Source: an uncultured Eubacteriales bacterium (GTDB lineage: Bacteria > Bacillota > Clostridia > Lachnospirales > Lachnospiraceae). From it: a stretch of 38,320 bases of DNA. This document shows, piece after piece, positions 4,543-14,533 of the stretch. The stretch is from contig ONXS01000009.1 of NCBI GenBank assembly GCA_900321855.1, positions 1-38,320 of the forward strand, written 5' to 3'. Under the pieces are notes generated by a model, which did not search any database, was not told the origin of the DNA, and saw nothing but the letters and a program-made list of their open reading frames with translations. A program made the translations under genes and the position numbers. How positions within the stretch are numbered: position 1 is the first letter of the stretch; each line of letters opens with the position of its first letter.

Positions 4543-4548
4543 GCAAAA

Positions 4549-4618
4549 AAAATAGGGTCAGACCCCGTAGAGGCATCTAACTGCAGTTAGATGCCTCTAC
4601 GGGGTCTGACCCTATTTT
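4549..4618. repeat. Perfect 70-bp palindrome containing the GGGGTCTGACCC motif; probable terminator of the ABC operon
   Basis: The two 35-bp halves are exact reverse complements centred on CTGCAG between 4583 and 4584. The outer part contains GGGTCAGACCCC, also present at 5381-5391 and 9628-9640. Read on the minus strand the hairpin is followed by an ATTTTTTTT run, so it should work as an intrinsic terminator for the upstream ABC gene. The stop codon of the ABC gene's restored frame lies in its first arm. It also sits directly upstream of the acpP promoter. Confidence 0.9.
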
Positions 4619-5261
4619 GTTAAAACTCCATGCGATATATTATAAATTTCGTCACATAATGTCTGAATATCTTCATTGTTATGGCTGACTAACAAGACCG
4701 TCTTTCCCTCTTTCCCTCTTTTTTCAATCTAAGCAGAATATCTCTCATTTCTTCCACGCCCTCGTTGTCCAATCCATTCATCGGTTCATCCAGAAAATAA
4801 ATATCCGGTTTCTCCATCATTGCCTGCGCAAGTCCCAACCGCTGCCTCATACCAAGACTATATTTTCTGACCAGCTTGTGTTCCGCTCCCTTCAATCCGA
4901 CAATCTCAAGTGTCTCCATCACTTCTTGTTTTCCAATCCTTTTTCGCAGACCAGCCAAGATTTTCAAGTTGCGATAACCACTATAATATGGAATAAATCC
5001 CGGCGTCTCTATGATTATCCCCACATTTTGCGGAAAATCTACATCCTTGCCTATCTTCATCCCCTCCACGAAGATTTCGCCTGATGTCGGTTTCACAAAT
5101 CCACAGATACATTTCATAAGCATAGTCTTTCCCGAACCGTTTCTCCCCACCAGTCCATAGATTTTTCCGTATTCCAGATTCATATTGACGTGTTGCAATA
5201 TCGCATCCTTTTTGATGAGCAGCCCCACATCTTTTACCTGAACTGCATAACTCTTCTCCAT
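4612..5261 (-). pseudogene. ABC transporter ATPase, frameshifted by an 8-bp tandem duplication
   Basis: The protein starts MEKSYAVQVKDVGLLI at 5261 after GGAGGT. It has Walker A GRNGSGKT (39-46), a Q-loop region near 85, signature SLGMRQR (135-141) and Walker B IYFLDEP (154-160). In the present frame it stops after 190 residues at 4689 with KRERRSC, before the H-loop. The duplicated word TTTCCCTC at 4703-4710 and 4711-4718 (plus strand) causes this. Removing one copy restores EGKTVLLVSHNNEDIQ with the H-loop histidine and a stop at 4612-4614, giving a 213-aa protein of ordinary size. It would energise the two permeases encoded just upstream. It could be a dead gene, a phase-variable gene or a sequencing error. 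Confidence 0.85.
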
Positions 5262-5372
5262 CTTGTTCTACCTCCACTCTGTTTTATACTTATTCCATTT
5301 ACCAGAAATCTGTATCAATCAATTTTTCACTTCCAGATTCCAGTACATACCTTACATTTCAGTTAGTTATAA

Positions 5373-5396
5373 CTAATGGGGTCTGACCCCCATTAG
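5373..5396. repeat. Short inverted repeat of the GGGGTCTGACCCC family
   Basis: CTAATGGGG (5373-5381) and CCCCATTAG (5388-5396) form a 9-bp stem around TCTGAC, between the second permease and the ABC ATPase gene. A further TTAGTTATAACTAA palindrome overlaps its left side. It shares its core with the 70-bp palindrome and with the element at 9628-9640, so it belongs to a dispersed family in this genome. Confidence 0.75.
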
Positions 5397-5402
5397 GTCC
5401 CA

Positions 5403-6284
5403 TTAATCCTCCATATCTGTGACTTTTGAAAAATCGTAATCTTGAATGGTATTGATTGAAATCAATGTTAGAAACATGATAATGATTCCAAAATATAGAT
5501 ATGAAAAACGAATATCTAAAATCTGCTTGTTCAAATATTTGTCAAAATGTACCCAGCATGTCGTATTTGCAGTTGGAAAAAACCACTTGATTTTGCTACC
5601 GGTGAAGGAGAGTGCCGTTCCAATGCAGAGAATTCCGCAGTTGATGACGATACTGAGTACCCTCTTTCCAAATGTAAATCCCGCCAGCATAACCATAGCT
5701 ATCATCAGTAAATTCAAAAACATCAGACTGCCTGTATAGAGCAATGTTTTCATTGGTGAGAGATTATTATACAAGCGGTTTGTGAGCAAATGTGCCATCA
5801 GTGAGCCTGACCTCTCCGGAAATATATACACATATTTTGTCACCACATCACTCCATTTGTCTGTTGTGTGTGAAAATGGAAGTGCAAACAAGACGCTGAA
5901 TACAAAAATAGAAAGAAGGTAGGTGAGTTCTGCCCAGATAATAAAAAGCATCTGTCCAAAAATCCAGTTTTTCTTACCTGTACGACAAATGTAGAACATC
6001 GTGTTTCCATCTGTCTTTGGAAAGTCTCCGAGTAGTGTGATAAATATGATTGGAAGAAATAATAACAACAGTTCTGAGTTTCCTATTGCCATAAATGGCT
6101 CAAAAATGTTGCATTTCATTCCCATATCGATTGATGCCTGTTTCATCTCCAAAATGATATAATCATAGATATAAATCATCATACAGAATAAAATAATCAT
6201 TCTCGGATTACAAATCCACTTCGTATACTCTGTCTTTGCAATATTAAAAATTTTTGAAAATGATAATCTGATTTTATTCTCCAC
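5403..6284 (-). CDS. ABC-2 type transporter permease
   Basis: This roughly 293-aa protein has about six hydrophobic segments, the first near residues 30-50 and others near 75-90, 110-135, 185-205, 210-230 and 265-285, a layout expected of ABC-2 permeases. The frame is open from a GTG at 6290, but AGGAGGT abuts that codon, so the second GTG at 6284 (VENKIRLSF) is the better start. Its beginning overlaps the end of the preceding permease. It shares the motif RTGKKN after TM2 with that neighbour, so the two are probably diverged paralogues forming a heterodimer with the frameshifted ATPase downstream. The substrate cannot be told from sequence. Confidence 0.8.
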   Translation of the reverse strand: MENKIRLSFSKIFNIAKTEYTKWICNPRMIILFCMMIYIYDYIILEMKQASIDMGMKCNIFEPFMAIGNSELLLLFLPIIFITLLGDFPKTDGNTMFYICRTGKKNWIFGQMLFIIWAELTYLLSIFVFSVLFALPFSHTTDKWSDVVTKYVYIFPERSGSLMAHLLTNRLYNNLSPMKTLLYTGSLMFLNLLMIAMVMLAGFTFGKRVLSIVINCGILCIGTALSFTGSKIKWFFPTANTTCWVHFDKYLNKQILDIRFSYLYFGIIIMFLTLISINTIQDYDFSKVTDMED

Positions 6285-7161
6285 AGTCACACCTCCTATT
6301 CAATATTAGGTAATAACAGATAAATCCCATCACAGCAACGACAAGCCAGAACAACAATATTTTGTGCTGAATATCTTTTTCGTAGAGGAACAGCCATGTC
6401 GGACTGACCGGATTTACAATTTGTGCTGTATGATTTGCAACCAGTTCTGGCTTTTCCAGCATATTTTTCACCAGATAATTTGCCATAAACGGAACACAGA
6501 GTACCAAATATTTATTTCGCATCATTCCAGAAAAAATAAATGTGATCAACACACTCGTCATTCCATAGAAAAACATCTCAAACAACCGTTTTGTAACCAT
6601 TATTCCTGTGAGAATATTACCTGCGAGCATATCTCCCGTGAATGTATCGCCCGAAAGTGAATCTCCGGCAAATATCGAATTTCCCGCACTCGCTGACGGA
6701 AGTACACATTTTAAGACCACTGCAAAAAGTATGTATCCAAAAAGCATGACAAGACCGCCCACAAACATTGCCGCAATTTCCTTTGCAAGCACATAATTTT
6801 TCTTTCCAGTGCGATAAATTTCAAATCGAATGTTATTGTTTTTCTTTGCTGTACACAAGAGAACTACAAATGGAGCTGACGCCAAAATAGATGCAAACAT
6901 CCACAGATAACTCTGCGAACCCTGCAAAAAAATACTTTGAAAAGAAATGTTATACATTTCTATTTTCATTTGCCTCTCCGCTTTTCCAAGCATCATAAGC
7001 TGCACTAAATTGTAGGACTTGTCCGTCTCTGCGTCTGTAAAAATTGTTCCCGAAATGTGAATTATAGCTGTCGCTAAAACGACCATTCCAAATGTATAAT
7101 TTGTGAGCATTTTCTTTATTTCCTGATAAATTGCATAAATCATTTTCATCATATTTCCCAC
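6274..7161 (-). CDS. ABC-2 type transporter permease with an internal pentapeptide-like repeat
   Basis: A 295-aa hydrophobic protein with about six membrane segments and an RTGKKN motif at 118-123 shared with the next gene. Residues 160-189 are odd: six consecutive five-residue units (GNSIF, AGDSL, SGDTF, TGDML, AGNIL, TGIMV) that resemble pentapeptide repeats and sit between two membrane segments. The frame opens with GTG at 7161; ATGs at 7152, 7149 and 7143 are also possible and no start has a clearly superior ribosome site. It follows the lipoprotein gene by 12 bp and overlaps the second permease, indicating one transcript. Confidence 0.78.
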   Translation of the reverse strand: MGNMMKMIYAIYQEIKKMLTNYTFGMVVLATAIIHISGTIFTDAETDKSYNLVQLMMLGKAERQMKIEMYNISFQSIFLQGSQSYLWMFASILASAPFVVLLCTAKKNNNIRFEIYRTGKKNYVLAKEIAAMFVGGLVMLFGYILFAVVLKCVLPSASAGNSIFAGDSLSGDTFTGDMLAGNILTGIMVTKRLFEMFFYGMTSVLITFIFSGMMRNKYLVLCVPFMANYLVKNMLEKPELVANHTAQIVNPVSPTWLFLYEKDIQHKILLFWLVVAVMGFICYYLILNRRCDCGE

Positions 7162-7173
7162 TCTTCTCTCTTC

Positions 7174-8319
7174 TCAAGGCTGCTCTGTCAGATATTTTTC
7201 TACATCGGATTTCTTTATCACAATCACAGGACGAACCCCCAGACTATTTTTATCATCATTCAATCTTCCTTCCAAATCTGGCTCAGTATTGATATTCGCT
7301 CCGAAATCAGAAATGAAAACCATCGAACTATATTCTGTATTCTGAATCGGGGTTCTTGTCCAATATCCTCTCACAAAATCAGTTGTGCAGGATTCCAATT
7401 CTGTGGAACTCTCCCGAAATCTGTCTCGCGCATAATCCGAACTTTCACATTTAAAAAACGGACTACTATCATACACAAGAATTTTCTCATCATTTCCCTT
7501 CATTTTATATGGACAGTCATATGCCAGTAAGGACAAATCATAAGCATCTCTGATTGCTACTTTATCCTCCGTTATGTCCACTAAATAAGAATCCTTCTCC
7601 TTCATCGGATATCCAAAATCGCTCGAATAATTTTCATACTGTGCACTCAGAATACTCTGCTTTTCCTCATCACGAAATGCACAATTATAAAAATCCTGAT
7701 TTAACCACTCACGCAAATCAGACTGCGACCATGTGACAGAACCTGCATTGCCTTCGATGTTATGTTGATTTTTGTCTGCATTATCACTTTGAATATCATT
7801 TTGATTCGTACTTTGCACATCATTTGGCTTAACACTGTCAAATTCTCTAGAATCAAGAATCTTATCTGACCACAAAATCACCGTTTCTCCATCATCTGCA
7901 ATCACTCTCCAGATAATATCCTCCACCTTGTAATAATCATAAGTATCTTCACGATTCTTACATCTGTAGACGTCAAAATCCTTACCTGTTGCATATCCCT
8001 CATCATCATAATTTAGATTTACAATCTCATCTGTCTGTTCTTTGTTTTTCATTCGGCTCTGCGGATAAGTTCCTATTGTTACATAAGTATAGTGTAAATG
8101 GTCACTTGCAGAATTTGGTTTACTTAGAAAATATGGTGTATAATCTGCCTGTTCCTGTTTCTCTGTCCTTTTTTTATCTTCGCCATTTTTGCTGTGATTT
8201 TTATCTGGAGTACAACTAGCCAAAAATAATGTAAAACCAATCACCAAAGACAGCAGTAAATACGATTTCAAATGCCACTCTCTATCTTTTTTCTTCTCTG
8301 TTCTAATCATGTCTGACAT
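7174..8319 (-). CDS. Lipoprotein with a DUF6273-like C-terminal domain
   Basis: The N-terminus (LLLSLVIGFTLFLASC, cysteine 36) is a lipoprotein signal, so the 381-aa protein should be anchored on the outer face of the membrane. The body resembles the DUF6273 family: VTIGTYPQS, IIWRVIADDGETVILWSDKI, WSQSDLREWLNQDFYNCAF, YWTRTPIQN and a terminal NSLGVRPVIVIKK. Such domains occur in surface proteins of gut Firmicutes, with no activity known to me. A hydrophilic Asn/Gln/Asp-rich insert lies near 165-190. The start at 8319 follows AGGAGGGAT and overlaps the end of the upstream gene by 17 bp. It precedes two permease genes, so it may be an accessory or substrate-binding part of that transporter. 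Confidence 0.75.
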   Translation of the reverse strand: MSDMIRTEKKKDREWHLKSYLLLSLVIGFTLFLASCTPDKNHSKNGEDKKRTEKQEQADYTPYFLSKPNSASDHLHYTYVTIGTYPQSRMKNKEQTDEIVNLNYDDEGYATGKDFDVYRCKNREDTYDYYKVEDIIWRVIADDGETVILWSDKILDSREFDSVKPNDVQSTNQNDIQSDNADKNQHNIEGNAGSVTWSQSDLREWLNQDFYNCAFRDEEKQSILSAQYENYSSDFGYPMKEKDSYLVDITEDKVAIRDAYDLSLLAYDCPYKMKGNDEKILVYDSSPFFKCESSDYARDRFRESSTELESCTTDFVRGYWTRTPIQNTEYSSMVFISDFGANINTEPDLEGRLNDDKNSLGVRPVIVIKKSDVEKYLTEQP

Positions 8320-9598
8320 ATGTCTCTATCCCTCCTGTCAATGCATTTACATAAAATTCTGTAATCATTTTATCCTGTTCATTAATACAGCGAAAACACC
8401 AGCATGCAGTCGCATCTTCCTGATCTTGAATCATATAGTCCTTCCACAAATTCAAATATCCAAGTTCCACACTCTGAACCTCATATGTCGAGTTATCACC
8501 TAGATTTTCTTCTAGCAAATCAATCGCCTTTGCCAGAGGAAGTATCTTAGAAGATTCATTTAACTTTTCATAATTTAAAAGTTTTGTCATCCCGTCATAC
8601 ATATCGATTGAATTTTTCTCCACCTGATAGGCATCGTTCATGTCATAATTCATATTCATAACAGGAATACTAGCGCCGTTATCTACAGACTGACATAACA
8701 AACCACCAATTTCTCTTCTTATCTTATAGCGAAAGGTATAAACGCCATCTTTTAACTCATACACCTTCACATACGCAACTTTTAATTTCACATCTTCATT
8801 TTCACCATCCAATGTGAGTAACTCATCCAGATACTTCTCTGTAAATTCAATTCCTTCCTTTACGGATAACTCGCCATCCAAAAGTTTCCACTTATCCTCA
8901 AGTTTGCTCTCATCTCCGTATACATAATATTCTGCCACTAAGTCACATACAAACCTCGGCTGCGTGCGCATCGTATTGCCATCCTCATCACTCATCCTTT
9001 TCTCATATGCCAACTCATAACACTTTCCTCTCACATACGCCACCGTATCAAAGGACGGATGCGTAATCTCTGCATATTCCATTTTTTCCTCAGTCTGATT
9101 CATATAAGCCAACCACTCAGGCTCCCTCTTCTCATTTTCCTCATCATCCTCAAAAAATTCTTGAAAAGATTTATACTTCCCCTTATTCGCTATATTAAAA
9201 TATCCAGACTCCATATCTGCCTTGTCAAGTTCAGACCACTTTTTACCTAACATTCTTTCTATAAATGAAATCTCTTCTTTTAGCATCTCTTTTTCATTAT
9301 CAATATCCTTGTAACAGCCTCTGTCATACGCTCGTAAATCAAAGACACTATCCACATCCGGACAATATGGCGTAATGTCATCGAACTTTAATTTTTTACT
9401 CGTCTTCTTTGCGTTCTCCAAATCCTTCTTGGCATTTTTGCTCACCTCGGAAATACTCCTCACATCCGAACTTTGCTCTATACGCTCCTTTCCAGATTTT
9501 ATTTTTCCCTGCCTCTGCTCCGAATTTCTATAAAAATAGAAAATTCCAATTCCTAACACCAGTATCAATAGAATACAATACAACAAATTTCTTTTCAT
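8303..9598 (-). CDS. Membrane-anchored protein of unknown function, paralogue A
   Basis: A 431-aa protein with one N-terminal hydrophobic segment (LLYCILLILVLGIGIFYFY), which is either a membrane anchor or an uncleaved signal, followed by a long hydrophilic extracytoplasmic part rich in Glu, Lys and Asp. It is clearly related over its whole length to the next upstream gene product; shared words include KLKFDDITPYCPDV, TQPRFVC, AEYYVYG and FYVNALTGGIETY. The closing segment with FYVNALTG resembles PepSY-like tails of extracellular Firmicutes proteins, but that is only a hint. I do not recognise the family. The ATG at 9598 follows GAGAGGAAG. Confidence 0.75.
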   Translation of the reverse strand: MKRNLLYCILLILVLGIGIFYFYRNSEQRQGKIKSGKERIEQSSDVRSISEVSKNAKKDLENAKKTSKKLKFDDITPYCPDVDSVFDLRAYDRGCYKDIDNEKEMLKEEISFIERMLGKKWSELDKADMESGYFNIANKGKYKSFQEFFEDDEENEKREPEWLAYMNQTEEKMEYAEITHPSFDTVAYVRGKCYELAYEKRMSDEDGNTMRTQPRFVCDLVAEYYVYGDESKLEDKWKLLDGELSVKEGIEFTEKYLDELLTLDGENEDVKLKVAYVKVYELKDGVYTFRYKIRREIGGLLCQSVDNGASIPVMNMNYDMNDAYQVEKNSIDMYDGMTKLLNYEKLNESSKILPLAKAIDLLEENLGDNSTYEVQSVELGYLNLWKDYMIQDQEDATACWCFRCINEQDKMITEFYVNALTGGIETYVRHD

Positions 9599-9604
9599 AA
9601 TCTT

Positions 9605-9641
9605 CCTCTCTTGGGGTCACCTCTCTTGGGGTCAGACCCCA
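9605..9641. repeat. 15-bp tandem repeat joined to a GGGGTCAGACCCC palindrome in the leader of paralogue A
   Basis: CCTCTCTTGGGGTCA occurs twice back to back (9605-9619 and 9620-9634), and the second copy runs into the palindrome TGGGGTCAGACCCCA (9627-9641). The repeat duplicates a GAGAGG ribosome-site-like word in the leader of the gene starting at 9598, and shares its core with elements at 4549-4618 and 5373-5396. Confidence 0.8.
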
Positions 9642-9699
9642 TAGTTCTCTCTAACCTAGATTTTACAGGTCCTATTCTTTTCATTTATTTGTTACATAT

Positions 9700-9747
9700 A
9701 TCATATCACTGTCTTGATTAAGAAAATATGAGGGAAGGGATTAAGAA
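9700..9747 (-). promoter_or_regulatory. Candidate activator-dependent promoter with a 9-bp direct repeat
   Basis: GATTAAGAA is repeated exactly at 9716-9724 and 9739-9747 (plus-strand reading), 23 bp apart, about two helical turns. On the minus strand the proximal copy ends 10 bp before a TATGAT -10-like word (9705-9700), with no good -35. This is the usual geometry for a response-regulator-activated promoter, here for the gene starting at 9598. Which regulator binds is unknown. Confidence 0.4.
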
Positions 9748-9793
9748 TTGATGAAGATTTACACTTGATTGCCAAAAATTAACTACTTTCTTT

Positions 9794-11074
9794 CTAGCCA
9801 GAGTATCTAGTATACGTTTTTATATCTCCAGTTCTCGCATTTACATAAAATTCTGTTAGCGCATTGTCCTGTTCATTCACACAGTTAAAATACCAACATA
9901 CCGTAGCATTTCCTTCTTCCTGTGTCATACTGTCAACATAGGTGTTCAAATATCCTAACTCTACCCCATATACACAATAGTTCGAATTATCACCCAGACT
10001 TTTTTCTAATAATTCGATTGCTTTTCCCAACGGAAGAATCGCATCTGTCTGATTCGTCTTTGTATATCGAAATATTTTTGTAGGTCCCTGATACATATCA
10101 ATAGTGTCTGTTTCTACCTGATAAGCATCTATCATGTCATAATTTAAACTTGGCGAAGATACGCTTGAGCCGGCATCTAAAGTCTGACACAAAACCTCAT
10201 CAATACTTCTTCTCATTTTGTACCGAAATGCAAAAACGGTATCAGAAATTTGATACACTTCCACATAAGCTACCTTTAGTTTTACATCCTCACTTTCCCC
10301 GTCAAGTTCCAATAAATTCTCCAAATATTCCTCAGCAAATTGTACTCCATCTTTTACAGATATTTCTCCATCTGAAATTTTCCATGTCTTGTCCAACTCC
10401 CCCTGATTTCCATACACATAATATTCTGCGACTTTCTCACATACAAATCTCGGCTGAGTAAGCATGGTCAGTCCATCTTGTTCCTTCATCCTGTTTTCGT
10501 AATTTAATTCATAGCATTTTCCGCGATTAAATACCACCGATTTAAATAAAGGATTTACAATTTCTGCATATTGCAAATGTTTTTCATCTTGCTCCAAATA
10601 TGCCAGCCACTGAGGCTCTCTGTTCTCGTTCTCTTTATCATCCGACATAAATTCCAAAAAATCTTTATACTTGCCTTGCTTTATCAACTCATCATATCCC
10701 GATTGAAAATGTAAAAAATTCAGTTCTGTCATTTTTGCTCCCAGTAACTTTTCAATAAATGGAATTTGCACAGACAGCATATCCTTTTCACTTTTTATTT
10801 CCTTATAGTAATCTGGAAGGGAATAATGGATGTCCGATACGGTTTTCACATCCGGACAATACGGGATAATGTCTTCAAACTTTAACTTGTTACTGCGTTT
10901 TTTACAATTATCTAAATCTTGCATTACACATTTATGAACTTCTGTAAGATTTAATACTTCGTTACTATTATCATATTTTATTTCATTTGTACTCTTCCCG
11001 GAATATATATTTAAACAATAGATTCCCACACCTACCAAAAATACAAAAAAAATATATATAATAGTTCTTTTCAT
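9794..11074 (-). CDS. Membrane-anchored protein of unknown function, paralogue B
   Basis: A 426-aa protein with an N-terminal hydrophobic anchor (IIYIFFVFLVGVGIYCL) and a large charged outer part, homologous end to end with the product of the next gene downstream. Shared words include KLKFEDIIPYCPDVK, NREPQWLAYLEQ, TQPRFVCEKVAEYYVYG and EFYVNARTGDIKTY. The start at 11074 follows GAAAGGAGAAATTG. The two copies differ enough that the duplication is not very recent. It lies behind a hairpin (11106-11160) that separates it from the secreted-protein gene. The function is unknown; a tandem pair of surface proteins between agr genes and an ABC exporter suggests a shared export, sensing or immunity role. 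Confidence 0.75.
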   Translation of the reverse strand: MKRTIIYIFFVFLVGVGIYCLNIYSGKSTNEIKYDNSNEVLNLTEVHKCVMQDLDNCKKRSNKLKFEDIIPYCPDVKTVSDIHYSLPDYYKEIKSEKDMLSVQIPFIEKLLGAKMTELNFLHFQSGYDELIKQGKYKDFLEFMSDDKENENREPQWLAYLEQDEKHLQYAEIVNPLFKSVVFNRGKCYELNYENRMKEQDGLTMLTQPRFVCEKVAEYYVYGNQGELDKTWKISDGEISVKDGVQFAEEYLENLLELDGESEDVKLKVAYVEVYQISDTVFAFRYKMRRSIDEVLCQTLDAGSSVSSPSLNYDMIDAYQVETDTIDMYQGPTKIFRYTKTNQTDAILPLGKAIELLEKSLGDNSNYCVYGVELGYLNTYVDSMTQEEGNATVCWYFNCVNEQDNALTEFYVNARTGDIKTYTRYSG

Positions 11075-11100
11075 TCAATTTCTCCTTTCCACAATCATTA

Positions 11101-11160
11101 CAAAAGCACTATGTTTGCTTAAAATACTATTATGTTGATGTAATTTAAGCAAACATGTGC
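11101..11160 (-). terminator. Long hairpin after the secreted-protein gene; partial terminator or attenuator
   Basis: Arms 11106-11123 and 11144-11160 pair over about 16 bp (GTTTGCTTAAA with TTTAAGCAAAC, then GCAC with GTGC) around a 20-nt loop. On the minus strand only CTTTTG follows, a weak U-run, so some readthrough into the downstream genes is expected. Confidence 0.6.
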
Positions 11161-11199
11161 CTAAAAACTATACTTTCTATATATCAGTATAGACTATTA

Positions 11200-11607
11200 C
11201 TAATATTTCACACATCCACGTGTATAATATGCTCCGAGTCCCGCTGATGCACATTTGTACTGTTCACTATCAAGAACACCTGACCTACTAACTGCATGAT
11301 ATGAATACACAGATGATATATTTGAACTTCTAAATGTATATGTTCTGTTCATATCCGTTGTAACATCTCTCATATTAATATTCCATCCTGAAACTGTAAC
11401 TTGTGCATTGGTTCCCGAAATATATGTCGCTTGAACATAATGGGTTGACACATTGTTATATGGTATTTTTATTACATCTGTTGCATGCGCCGCACCAGGA
11501 CCAGTATAATAAGTATTCCAATTTGACTGTACTGCCCATGCATTTCCTACCATCATACTGCACATTAAACTTACTGTTGTTAACATTACTAATATTTTTT
11601 TCCTCAT
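11200..11607 (-). CDS. Small secreted protein encoded directly behind AgrB
   Basis: The 135-aa product begins with a classical signal peptide (KKILVMLTTVSLMCSMMVGNAWA) with a likely cut after residue 25, leaving about 110 residues. The mature part is Ser/Thr/Tyr/Asn-rich and predicted mostly beta; it has two cysteines near the C-terminus (119 and 132) that could form a disulfide closing GLGAYYTRG. Its ATG overlaps the agrB stop codon (ATGA) and AGAGGAGAAAG precedes it, so it is translationally coupled to agrB. I do not recognise the family. Position and size suit a secreted effector such as a bacteriocin-like protein or matrix protein, but nothing in the sequence proves that. Confidence 0.8.
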   Translation of the reverse strand: MRKKILVMLTTVSLMCSMMVGNAWAVQSNWNTYYTGPGAAHATDVIKIPYNNVSTHYVQATYISGTNAQVTVSGWNINMRDVTTDMNRTYTFRSSNISSVYSYHAVSRSGVLDSEQYKCASAGLGAYYTRGCVKY

Positions 11608-12179
11608 TCTCTTTCTCCTCTTACTGTTTTTTCAAATAAGCAAGGTATCTGTAACATTGCTGTTAATATCACTCCTTCTGCAATACATAATGCATTTTTA
11701 CCCATACGAATAGATATCAAAATCACATATATTACAGTAAAAAATATGAGCATACAAATTGTTACAATTTTATATTTTTTCATCTCATAATTCTCCAAGC
11801 GACGATTTTTAGAATCAATAGGACTTAGTATAATGAGTGATATAATAGAAAATATCAAAATAAGATTAAAAGGTATGTTAAATTTGATATACGAAATTAT
11901 ATAAACACTCGCAAATAATATACCACATGAAATAATGAGACAAAGCCATGCATATTTTAAGTGAAATCCACCACAAAATTTTCTCAAACACATAAATGGA
12001 ATAATAATCAAAATGCTTTCAATCAAGTGTCCCATTATACTTCCAATGATTATAATAATTATTACTGGTAGTATTGAGATAAACAAACTATAACCTGCAT
12101 ACTCATACAATTCTCTGTCTTCCTCTGATACTGTACCTTTGCTTATTAGCCAATTTACAAGTTTTCTTACAATCTTCAT
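11604..12179 (-). CDS. agrB: AgrB-like membrane endopeptidase processing an autoinducing peptide
   Basis: AgrB proteins cut the AgrD precursor and help form the thiolactone peptide. The 191-aa product has four to six membrane segments and the family motif RKFCGGFH, with histidine 73 and cysteine 80 seven residues apart, the spacing of the catalytic His/Cys pair in AgrB. The start at 12179 lies only 2 bp after the AgrD-like stop and has just a weak ribosome site, implying translational coupling to agrD. The region is noticeably AT-rich compared with neighbouring housekeeping genes. Confidence 0.92.
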   Translation of the reverse strand: MKIVRKLVNWLISKGTVSEEDRELYEYAGYSLFISILPVIIIIIIGSIMGHLIESILIIIPFMCLRKFCGGFHLKYAWLCLIISCGILFASVYIISYIKFNIPFNLILIFSIISLIILSPIDSKNRRLENYEMKKYKIVTICMLIFFTVIYVILISIRMGKNALCIAEGVILTAMLQIPCLFEKTVRGERE

Positions 12180-12181
12180 TA

Positions 12182-12334
12182 TTAATGTTTCTTTCTAAAA
12201 CGCTCTAATGATTCAGGTGCTTTAGGCTGATGAATAACTATACACGATGTTGAATTTGCTTCTACTCTAAGCATTTTATCCAAAACTTTGGTAATCATAT
12301 GAGCTGTCTTTTTAGATATATTTTTTTCTTTCAT
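12182..12334 (-). CDS. agrD: AgrD-like cyclic lactone autoinducer peptide precursor
   Basis: A 50-codon gene starting at 12334 after the strong site AAGGAGGGAGG. The product starts MKEKNISKKTAHMITKVLDK, an amphipathic leader, then has the core ANSTSCIVIH and the conserved acidic tail QPKAPESLERFRKKH. The (Q/E)PK-P-E-L tail and a single cysteine five residues before it are the AgrD hallmarks. By analogy the ring would run from cysteine 31 to histidine 35 (CIVIH), with an N-terminal tail ending NSTS. The next gene is agrB, and agrA/agrC-like genes are divergent, which makes the call strong despite the short length. Confidence 0.88.
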   Translation of the reverse strand: MKEKNISKKTAHMITKVLDKMLRVEANSTSCIVIHQPKAPESLERFRKKH

Positions 12335-12514
12335 CTGTATCCTCCCTCCTTATATATAATCATTGGGTACTACTCCACTATATTAACATGTTCATTGATT
12401 TTTTCTACAGTCCAAGCACGAAAAGCAAAAAAGCCGTCATTTTTGGTTGATTGTTTTCTTTTTTTTCGTCAATTTTATAGTATAATGATTCTATCAACTT
12501 GTTAGGGAGGAATT
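12335..12514. promoter_or_regulatory. Divergent agr promoter region
   Basis: This 180-bp AT-rich gap drives agrD leftward and agrA rightward. On the plus strand TATAAT (12481-12486) lies 28 bp ahead of the agrA start with a poor -35 in a T-run, as expected of an activated promoter. A direct repeat, CGTCATTTT (12435) and CGTCAATTTT (12467), is offset by 32 bp, about three turns. On the minus strand TAATAT is the best -10, again without a good -35. LytTR binding sites are expected here, but I could not fit the staphylococcal AgrA consensus. Confidence 0.5.
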
Positions 12515-13222
12515 ATGCGTATTATTATTTGTGATGACGAACCAGAGATTACTGAACAATTATATTCAATCTTACTTGATTTCTTTCAAATGAACTCTTT
12601 AAAAACCCCTGAAATCATTACTTATGAGTGTGGTGAAGATTTATTGTCTGACACCACACCTATAGATTTTGTATTCTTGGACATTGAAATGTCAGGAGTA
12701 AATGGAATCTATGTTGGCAATGAATTAAAAAGAAGAAACAAAGATATCATTATCTTTATCGTAACATCATATTCTGAGTATTTAGATGATGCTATGAAAT
12801 TTCATGTGTTTCGTTATCTTTCAAAGCCTCTAGATTCCGTTCGAATTCACAGAAATCTAAAGGATGCTTTATTGGTATACAATGAAACAATACATTCCGT
12901 TCTTATTGAAACAAAAACAGAATCCTTCACTGTATCTGCTTCTGATATCATATATGTAGAAGTGATGAAACATAAGGTTACAATACATACAATAAATGGA
13001 GATTTTATTTCAACAAAAACTATGAATTATTGGAAACAAGTGTTAAACTATCCATCATTTTTCACATCACACAAAAGTTTTCATATTAATATGAAATATG
13101 TTACCAGTTTTGATCACTCCGTGATTCATTTATATAACAATCATTTCACAGCATATTTAACACGAAGAAATTATTCTAATTTTAAAGATACTTATTTATT
13201 ATATTTAGAAAGCATGAGGTAA
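12515..13222 (+). CDS. agrA: LytTR-family response regulator, AgrA-like
   Basis: A 235-aa response regulator. The receiver domain (1-120) has the acidic pair D7/D8, phosphoacceptor D56 in FLDIEMSG, T84 and K104 in LSKP. From about 135 to 235 is a LytTR DNA-binding domain (SASDIIYVEVMKHKVTIHT...FFTSHKSFHINMKYV). It starts at 12515 after TTAGGGAGGAATT. It overlooks the divergent agrDB promoter and lies 6 bp before its kinase, so it most likely activates the peptide-exporter operon when the signal peptide is sensed. Confidence 0.92.
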   Translation: MRIIICDDEPEITEQLYSILLDFFQMNSLKTPEIITYECGEDLLSDTTPIDFVFLDIEMSGVNGIYVGNELKRRNKDIIIFIVTSYSEYLDDAMKFHVFRYLSKPLDSVRIHRNLKDALLVYNETIHSVLIETKTESFTVSASDIIYVEVMKHKVTIHTINGDFISTKTMNYWKQVLNYPSFFTSHKSFHINMKYVTSFDHSVIHLYNNHFTAYLTRRNYSNFKDTYLLYLESMR

Positions 13223-13228
13223 TTTATA

Positions 13229-14533
13229 ATGTCTGCTAACTTATTATATCTATTCACTTATCTGATTGAGGCAGTTGCTCTGTATTACTATTGCTCGTCT
13301 CTATTTATATCAAAACTCTCAGTTAAAATAACATGCAGTATCTATGTATTGAGTTACTTATCCATGTATTTGCTATCATTTTTCAAGAGTGTACCATTAA
13401 ATTGCACCGTTACGGTATTATCAACCTGTTTTATTTTATGCTTGGTTTATAATGTCAAATTCTATATATCTCTATTCCACTCTGTTATAATTACAGGAAT
13501 CATGTCATTAAGCGAAATTATTATCATTGCTCTATTTTCTAATTTTAATAACTACACATTATTAGAAAATCAAAATGTTACTTATTTGACTATATTGGCG
13601 ATTACAAGTAAAATTCTCTATTTGCTTTGTTTAAAATTAATATCTTCTATCATGCCTGTAAGGTTACGAACAACGCAATACAAAAGTACATCTGCGATTC
13701 TATTAACCATTATTTCTATGATTTCGCTTTATATTGCAGCAACCCTTACAATGTTTGTGCTACTAATCAAAATGCCTATAACTTTTAGATATATTTTATC
13801 TTCCTGTGCAGTACTTCTTTTAATAAGCAATATTTTGTTCTATTATATCCATCAGCATATTTTGAAAAAAAATTACGAATTTACTGATATGCAGATTCAA
13901 TTGCAAAAAGAATATGATATGGGACTGTACTACAAGACTCTTTTTTCGCAAAACGAAAATCAAAGAATTCTCATACATGATATTCGAAAACATCTGACAA
14001 CACTTTCTGACTTAAATAGCAAAAAAGATTACATTCATATTCAAAAATATCTTGATACACTTCTTCATTCCACAGCGCTAAGAGCCTCTGTTCAGGTATC
14101 TGACAATGAAATGCTAAATTCAATTTTGTGTCACTATCTGAATTTGTGTTATGAGAAAGATATTTCTATGAATACCGACATTCGTACAAATAGCTTGTCA
14201 AATTTAGAATATGCAGATCTTACATCATTGTTTGGAAATCTGCTCGACAACGCAATTGATTCATGTGATAATATTCCGAAATCAGTTATTGATCTTAGTA
14301 TTTCAAAACCTCAAACTAATGTATCACTAATTTCACTCATTAACACATGTATTACACCACCAGTTTTTGATGCCAACCATATGCCTATCTCTCAAAAGGA
14401 AAATAAGCAGTACCATGGTATTGGTATGAAAAGCATTCAGAAAATTGTAAATAAATATAATGGCAATATAAAAGTGTATTACGAGGAAGAAAAGCATCTG
14501 TTTCACACTATTATTATGATATGCAGTAAATAG
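13229..14533 (+). CDS. agrC: AgrC-like sensor histidine kinase
   Basis: A 434-aa kinase with about six N-terminal membrane helices (to residue 210), a coiled dimerisation helix, the phosphoacceptor histidine 250 in LIHDIRKHL, and a GHKL ATPase domain with N-box GNLLDNAIDSCDN near 333-345 and G-box HGIGMKSIQKIV near 408. This is the quorum-sensing (HPK10/AgrC) architecture, so the ligand should be the cyclic peptide encoded next door. The ATG follows GAGGTAATTTATA, 6 bp after agrA. A strong terminator follows at 14691. Confidence 0.92.
   Translation: MSANLLYLFTYLIEAVALYYYCSSLFISKLSVKITCSIYVLSYLSMYLLSFFKSVPLNCTVTVLSTCFILCLVYNVKFYISLFHSVIITGIMSLSEIIIIALFSNFNNYTLLENQNVTYLTILAITSKILYLLCLKLISSIMPVRLRTTQYKSTSAILLTIISMISLYIAATLTMFVLLIKMPITFRYILSSCAVLLLISNILFYYIHQHILKKNYEFTDMQIQLQKEYDMGLYYKTLFSQNENQRILIHDIRKHLTTLSDLNSKKDYIHIQKYLDTLLHSTALRASVQVSDNEMLNSILCHYLNLCYEKDISMNTDIRTNSLSNLEYADLTSLFGNLLDNAIDSCDNIPKSVIDLSISKPQTNVSLISLINTCITPPVFDANHMPISQKENKQYHGIGMKSIQKIVNKYNGNIKVYYEEEKHLFHTIIMICSK

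Follow-up and report, generated by a model that had tools for sequence, protein, structure and literature searches.

Among the described systems that come closest to the locus considered here are quorum-sensing loci of the agr and Fsr types (agrBDCA, fsrABDC), of which Fsr controls enterocin O16. Lantibiotic loci such as those for nisin and gallidermin encode a LanFEG transporter and LanI, and in them the structural gene lanA is followed by an intercistronic hairpin; lactococcin 972-type loci (PF09683) encode a membrane protein and an ABC ATPase. We analysed a locus with likenesses to all of these in an uncultured Eubacteriales bacterium of the family Lachnospiraceae (assembly GCA_900321855.1, contig ONXS01000009.1). 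The window, that is, the whole analysed stretch of 38,320 nucleotides, is contig C46 of a genome that is 83% complete and has a size of 2.09 Mb in 128 contigs. Here, agr genes stand together with genes for a small secreted protein, two anchored proteins (SP-A and SP-B, jointly SP), a DUF6273 lipoprotein and an ATP-binding cassette (ABC) transporter of two permeases (perm1, perm2) and one ATPase. We propose that the locus is a quorum-controlled, bacteriocin-like secretion and self-protection system, and give this reading an even chance of being right. The joint divergence of the small protein and SP, the LanF-like ATPase, arrays of SP genes, a hairpin behind the small gene and the quorum-sensing genes are all in keeping with a bacteriocin-like product that has protection genes of its own.

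All genes named in a preceding sequence-only reading of this DNA were found at the locus, by Pfam and NCBIfam matches and from the sequence. They lie on the minus strand in the order agrD, agrB, small gene, SP-A, SP-B, DUF6273 lipoprotein, perm1, perm2 and ATPase, while agrA and agrC are on the plus strand, divergent from agrD (Table 1). The regulatory genes comprise an AgrB family protein, an AgrD adjoining agrB (34.9 bits against TIGR04223, E 1.2e-08, above the cut-off of 19) and a LytTR regulator with its partner kinase; agrC begins 6 nt past agrA, and relatives of agrC adjoin agrA in other loci as well. Only 2 nt separate agrD from agrB, and the agrB stop overlaps the start of the small gene by 4 nt, so that the three genes are very probably co-transcribed. 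The suggestion that agrD-agrB continues without a clear break thus holds as far as the small gene but not downstream, where gaps of 125 nt (small gene to SP-A), 195 nt (SP-A to SP-B) and 141 nt (perm2 to ATPase) occur.

The 125-nt gap contains a strong hairpin, with a fold z of -5.0 for positions 11095-11199 and of -3.8 for the whole gap. Hairpins with z ≤ -3.5 were present in 13 of 20 gaps between small gene and SP, compared with 32 of 150 other same-strand control gaps (p 1.3e-4). The gaps tested were about 60 nt or more, shorter ones being excluded; two were trimmed to 145-150 nt, two came from near-identical loci, and 150 of the 161 controls were folded. None of the tails listed for the 20 gaps contains five consecutive U.

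The order small secreted protein, SP, perm1, perm2 and ATPase recurs in Lachnospiraceae, Ruminococcus and others. Relatives of perm2 were found in 87 of the 397 genomes of the family (E ≤ 1e-5) and 33 of the 392 genomes of the order, and a perm2 scan of genomes of named species gave 69 loci. The named-species loci, the stretches fetched from family and order genomes and the window together make 114 distinct modules, in some of which contig ends hide genes; because the perm2 profile was broadened by iteration, weaker relatives are among these 112-114 modules. Within 7 kb of perm2, SP was present in 87 of the 114, the ATPase in 105, a match to the small-protein family in 25 and AgrB in eight (for perm1 see Table 1), and each of the 25 modules with a small-family match also had SP. 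Cultured carriers of the ABC module include Ruminococcus albus 8 (small gene at L151:4101-4538), R. bicirculans 80/3 (small gene at L168:6481-6891) and Cuneatibacter caecimuris; among these three, agr genes were seen within 7 kb in R. albus 8 only. A tblastn search for carriage on plasmids with the small protein and perm2 gave no match. Four unannotated faecal 'Bacteriophage sp.' records encode a perm2 relative; those at L257-L259 (MT835787, MT835572, MT839114; L numbers denote loci) are 34-44% identical and may be bacterial DNA.

Besides the window, ten other loci have agr genes upstream of the small gene. They lie within 0.4 kb of it in L038, L112, L117, L119, L143 (at the 3' end), L151, L194, L201 and L241, the gene concerned being agrA in L241, whereas in L181 the small gene is 1.4 kb from agrB with agrD between them. 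In R. albus 8 (L151) the order is agrA-agrC-agrB-small gene-SP-perm1-perm2-ATPase, and L119, from another family of the order, has the same agr-small gene-SP-ABC order. Two further loci have no recognised small gene: in L043, agrACDB directly precedes SP and the ABC genes, and L033 has agrAC. Linkage of agr to the downstream genes therefore recurs in other genera and families, so that the two sets are not always at unrelated places in relatives. For the 112 modules that remained after two rows under 200 bits were dropped from the 114, AgrB lay no more than 7 kb away in 7 of the 25 that have a small gene and in 1 of the 87 that lack it (Fisher p 9e-5), and AgrB or AgrC in 9 of 25 and 5 of 87 (p 3e-4). 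With the window and modules having less than 5 kb of 5' flank removed, the AgrB counts were 6 of 19 and 1 of 64 (p 4e-4). Systems of the agr type are common in the family, with 72 AgrB places in 100 genomes and at least one in 36 of the 100; a rough estimate puts its chance occurrence in a 14-kb stretch under 0.5%, compared with the 7% seen. On the perm2 tree, a quick tree with long branches, the eight AgrB-bearing modules require eight changes, which suggests that the link between agr and the module was gained or lost repeatedly. The same genome has a second agr locus (L028, contig C60, 4882-12585) with the order agrA-agrC-agrD-agrB, downstream of which come a gene for a protein of 385 aa, probably anchored, and a further ABC transporter.

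The small proteins form a highly divergent family that none of the searched libraries names. The window protein had no Pfam or NCBIfam match, no match in the Protein Data Bank (PDB) better than E 0.9 and none in PHROGs better than 0.15. Searches with 28 family members against Pfam, NCBIfam and PDB gave no supported family. One member matched ELFV_dehydrog_N of Pfam at 7.9e-05 and two matched an NCBIfam alpha-amylase model (0.0009 at best); these were judged chance matches, since no Pfam or NCBIfam match was common to more than two of the 28, and the lactococcin 972 family PF09683 was not among the 14 families matched by these members at E ≤ 1. This agrees with the earlier remark that no part of the locus matches a named bacteriocin family, as searched in Pfam, NCBIfam and PDB. 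The 28 aligned members have in common a signal peptide, an L-x-Y-x-x-G-A-like motif early in the sequence and a C-terminal G that hardly varies, at a mean pairwise identity of 17% (23 loci). When the mature parts were tested with leave-one-out profiles, 24 of the 28 scored better than all 100 shuffles; of the four that failed, L181 did so clearly (59 of 100 shuffles as good). Searching with the window sequence alone found a match in one of 194 genomes, its own, while the family profile had matches at E ≤ 0.001 in 128 of 397. Seventeen places were below 1e-9, 15 of them in loci already aligned, and many of the weaker places were partial matches inside long frames. As the small genes were initially chosen by their position 5' of SP, the link between the two is partly circular. 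Independent checks were made on seven places hand-picked from one profile search, in which further weaker places number more than 100, and on L112, L201 and L194, which were outside the profile. Three of the seven adjoin SP, one of them also AgrA, and L112, L201 and L194 match the profile at 1e-13, 3e-10 and 7e-06, respectively.

SP-A and SP-B are identical at 230 of 430 aligned columns (53%). The AlphaFold2 model of SP-A (mean pLDDT 88.2, pTM 0.85) was closest in Foldseek to 5coz, an uncharacterised Eubacterium rectale protein (3.1e-07, target TM-score 0.54), YycI (2o3o, 2.2e-04, 0.49) and YpeB. This high-confidence model combines a membrane anchor with YycI/PepSY-like extracellular domains; among 56 SPs, PepSY was matched in 14, YycI in three and a lipobox model in seven at E ≤ 0.1. 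The 'paired surface proteins' of the sequence-only reading are indeed two anchored paralogues, but the pair is part of a family with up to eight copies in a module. At least two SP genes were present in 27 of the 114 modules, and L163 (eight full-length SPs) and L196 (seven) have tandem arrays around the permeases. Such arrays were also seen in L165 and L160, and a recognised small gene was not found within 7 kb in L163, L196 or L160. A first scan of the genome contigs with SP alone gave no matches; SP relatives were found in 16 of the 397 family genomes, and a third SP of this genome lies on contig C32, where a phmmer search of a 20-kb stretch with the window proteins gave no ABC or small-gene match. 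By analogy, the multiple SPs and the lone SP on C32 resemble orphan-immunity arrays.

Mean identity between relatives (23 loci) was 0.17 for both the small protein and SP, 0.22 for perm1, 0.32 for perm2 and 0.53 for the ATPase. Beyond what perm2 accounts for, divergence of the small protein was correlated with that of SP (partial r 0.27, p 0.0005, the floor of 2000 permutations), while the value for the small protein and perm1 was 0.03.

Two permeases and one ATPase stand in a row in this locus, as in LanFEG transporters, and only a few loci lack one of the three by gene calls. The window permeases had no Pfam match beyond chance level. The ATPase scored 157 bits against TIGR03740 (lantibiotic protection; cut-off 309.75), which was also the top match for the ATPases of all six scanned relatives (154-175 bits, about half of the cut-off). 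The sequence-only reading had taken the ABC transporter for an ABC-2 exporter; as the small protein carries a signal peptide itself, a LanFEG-like protection exporter is more likely than an exporter of that protein. The lipoprotein, likewise proposed as part of the system, was not a regular element, given that the DUF6273 profile labelled no relative's gene in the module maps examined. A search of six module proteins with PADLOC gave no match. A lantibiotic locus was considered and rejected: contig C46 has no LANC_like gene, and the genome's single one is on contig C116 (LanB was not searched for). That gene (PF05147, 1.4e-31) is located at C116:5037-6167.

In the system that we propose, AgrB would process and export the AgrD peptide, which, judging from family knowledge and the near-fused genes, would activate AgrC-AgrA and thereby switch on the agrD-agrB-small gene operon. 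The small protein would leave the cell via Sec by its signal peptide and act extracellularly, most likely on related bacteria, and the hairpin behind its gene would yield more small protein than downstream products. At the cell surface, the small protein would be bound by SP, and its removal from the membrane by the LanFEG-like ABC transporter would protect the producer. As the same cluster is present in distant relatives, it may represent a new kind of population-controlled bacterial weapon. In its full form, to which we assign somewhat less than an even chance, this would be a class of quorum-controlled weapons composed of an unmodified, Sec-secreted, fast-evolving protein of ~100 aa that belongs to no known family, a surface immunity protein with a YycI/PepSY fold and a dedicated ABC transporter, with immunity genes amplified in tandem arrays, spread through gut and rumen Clostridia.

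Several observations weigh against a bacteriocin-like system. AgrB within 7 kb is absent in 104 of 112 modules (among the 84 whose 5' flank is 5 kb or longer, eight have it) and a recognised small gene in 87 of 112. After correction for kinship, the association of the small gene with AgrB had a median p of 0.125; in almost all informative pairs the two went in the same direction, but the pairs were too few. The window small protein is a weak member of its family (leave-one-out 8.3 bits, best shuffle 7.8), its structure model was poor (mean pLDDT 45.7) and unfit for structure search, and four of the seven followed profile places, a 145-aa match and three longer frames, were away from SP. The SP fold is likest to regulators and not to a named immunity protein, and the ATPases of the window and the six relatives all fall under the TIGR03740 cut-off. 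Beside a short tandem repeat near 4700-4720, the window ATPase frame stops early, at 190 aa, the rest being in another frame to about 4613; ATPases in 103 other modules have a median length of 214 aa (5-95%: 206-271), with 190 aa or less in three. Because of this interruption, which may be real damage, phase variation or an assembly error, the window copy of the module may not be fully functional. Upstream of the window agrD, no significant LytTR-type direct repeat was found (the best was matched by 49 of 60 shuffles), and we infer AgrA control of the operon from its structure and from family knowledge. In one of 21 regions searched for AgrA repeats, that of L117, a perfect direct repeat of 10 bp, TTTCGCCATG, was present, its copies 21 bp apart. 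This repeat, upstream of position 7327, was reached by none of 60 shuffles and precedes a small gene located after agrA-agrC; it is a possible LytTR site.

The joint divergence of small protein and SP would also be produced by a ligand and its receptor, and it fits equally well with the small protein being a non-toxic extracellular factor (matrix component, adhesin or signal) and SP and the ABC transporter a receptor, sensing or surface-assembly unit. SP would then be a regulator, acting as YycI does on WalK, in keeping with YycI, YycH and YpeB, all regulators, as its closest named folds and with the frequent control of surface and biofilm factors by agr. Such a role is possible but rather unlikely, as the ATPase is likest to a protection transporter, arrays in which SP reaches eight copies with no recognised small gene nearby suit immunity better, and both the small protein and SP are strongly diverged. 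Protection could also be directed outwards, with SP and the ABC transporter forming a resistance module against foreign antimicrobial peptides, similar to CprABC or BcrAB, that lies beside agr by chance and is unrelated to the small protein. That most modules have no agr nearby agrees with this, as does the position of many weaker perm2 relatives, which adjoin another kinase/regulator pair (OmpR-type by eye) and no small gene. We consider it unlikely in view of the constant presence of SP in small-family modules and the concentration of AgrB there, the adjoining SP at three of the seven followed places of small-family members found by sequence alone, the joint divergence of small protein and SP, and the agr-small gene-SP-ABC order shared with R. 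albus 8 and with L119, a locus from another family of the order.

An export function for the ABC transporter, with SP as a secretion accessory and a peptide or a small-protein helper as the product, would parallel Pmt, the agr-linked exporter of phenol-soluble modulins in staphylococci. PmtC was a strong, though not the best, match for the ATPase in all six relatives. Since the small protein brings a signal peptide of its own, the AgrD peptide leaves through AgrB and no further peptide gene was seen among the window module open reading frames of at least 40 aa, we regard export as very improbable. A bacteriocin-like product with its own protection is the best-fitting reading, and the resemblance to bacteriocin and immunity loci that the sequence-only reading had seen stands as a reasoned interpretation.

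The cluster is flanked by acpP and acc genes (4452 and below) and by a gene that we take from its sequence to be FeoB-like (14825 and above). To look for the insertion site, we searched for accC, which had a match in five of nine genomes of the genus, this one included. Stretches from the other four retained the acc genes and had no blastp match to the agr or module genes of the window; an exact empty insertion site was not recovered among them. Beside accD, two matches to the GA-cis RNA above the gathering score are located on the minus strand at 976-1056 and 1210-1288. The palindrome GGGGTCAGACCCC occurs at 4554-4613, 5378-5390 and 9628-9640 of the window; the first site, the terminal hairpin, consists of two near-copies, and the gaps between SP-A and SP-B and between perm2 and the ATPase contain one copy each. 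With up to two mismatches there are four sites in the window, all inside the module. As GGGGTCAGACCCC is matched exactly at 72 places in the genome, many of them paired at a distance of about 47 bp, and its reversed control at none, it is a genome-wide repeat similar to repetitive extragenic palindromes (REP-like) and is not part of the system.

Table 1. Features of the agr-linked locus, with positions in the window.
Feature	Position	Strand	Evidence or property
Long palindromic hairpin followed by U8, probable end of transcription unit	4554..4613	-	z -12.6 for 4545-4640
ABC ATPase, LanF-like	4689..5261	-	PF00005 2.3e-30; best NCBIfam TIGR03740 5.7e-46
perm2, ABC permease, 295 aa, search marker	5403..6290	-	perm2 alignment
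perm1, ABC permease, 295 aa	6274..7161	-	relative within 7 kb of perm2 in 108/114 modules
DUF6273 lipoprotein	7174..8319	-	PF19789 E 9.5e-11
SP-B, paralogue of SP-A	8303..9598	-	weak YycI match 0.0089
SP-A, 426 aa, N-terminal membrane anchor, YycI/PepSY-like extracellular fold (predicted)	9794..11074	-	AlphaFold2, Foldseek
Intercistronic hairpin between small gene and SP-A, no long U run	11104..11162	-	-30.3 kcal/mol
Small secreted protein, 135 aa, signal peptide, two Cys near C-terminus	11200..11607	-	divergent unnamed family
agrB, membrane peptidase/exporter of the peptide	11604..12179	-	PF04647 E 1.1e-36, above cut-off
agrD, cyclic autoinducing peptide precursor, 50 aa, single Cys then HQPKAPE	12182..12334	-	TIGR04223
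agrD/agrA intergenic region, presumed divergent promoters	12335..12514	.	position
agrA, LytTR response regulator	12515..13222	+	PF04397 2.2e-15, PF00072 1e-13
agrC, sensor histidine kinase	13229..14533	+	NCBIfam kinase matches below cut-off, best 1.6e-06

Our search of open-licence papers found neither a description of the module nor an account of agr targets in gut Lachnospiraceae or Ruminococcus; in an excerpt of PMC10838665, evidence for agr in rumen bacteria is called limited. The module is a concrete candidate for an agr output with its own likely protection genes. Should the small proteins turn out to inhibit competing bacteria, both a new family of antimicrobial proteins and a new immunity fold could be put to the test. 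The closest account found, as excerpted from PMC10301443, concerns Clostridium acetobutylicum, in which the gene for a LanM-like effector comes after the agrCA operon. The window shares with agr and Fsr loci AgrB, AgrD, a LytTR-type AgrA, an AgrC-type kinase and a secreted product under likely quorum control; it differs from them in having agrD before agrB, a divergent agrAC and an agrB that overlaps a secreted-protein gene, followed by SP and the ABC genes. It resembles LanFEG and LanI loci in two permeases of ~290 aa and a LanF-like ATPase that are preceded by an anchored protein or lipoprotein, and in the intercistronic hairpin after the structural gene, whereas the proposed substrate is a protein of ~100 aa, SP has a modelled YycI/PepSY fold and the ATPases are below the TIGR03740 cut-off. 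In common with lactococcin 972-type loci it has membrane and ABC genes next to the gene of a small protein that would be secreted unmodified through Sec, but its small proteins lack PF09683 and its permeases belong to no Pfam family beyond chance. SP is similar to the WalK regulators YycI and YycH and to the PepSY protein YpeB in its membrane anchor and PepSY-like extracellular domains; unlike theirs, its gene neighbours those of an ABC transporter and often that of a small secreted protein, and is present at least twice in 27 of the 114 modules. The agr genes, the LanFEG-like transporter and the PepSY/YycI fold are thus of known kinds, while the small-protein family and the combination of genes appear to be undescribed.

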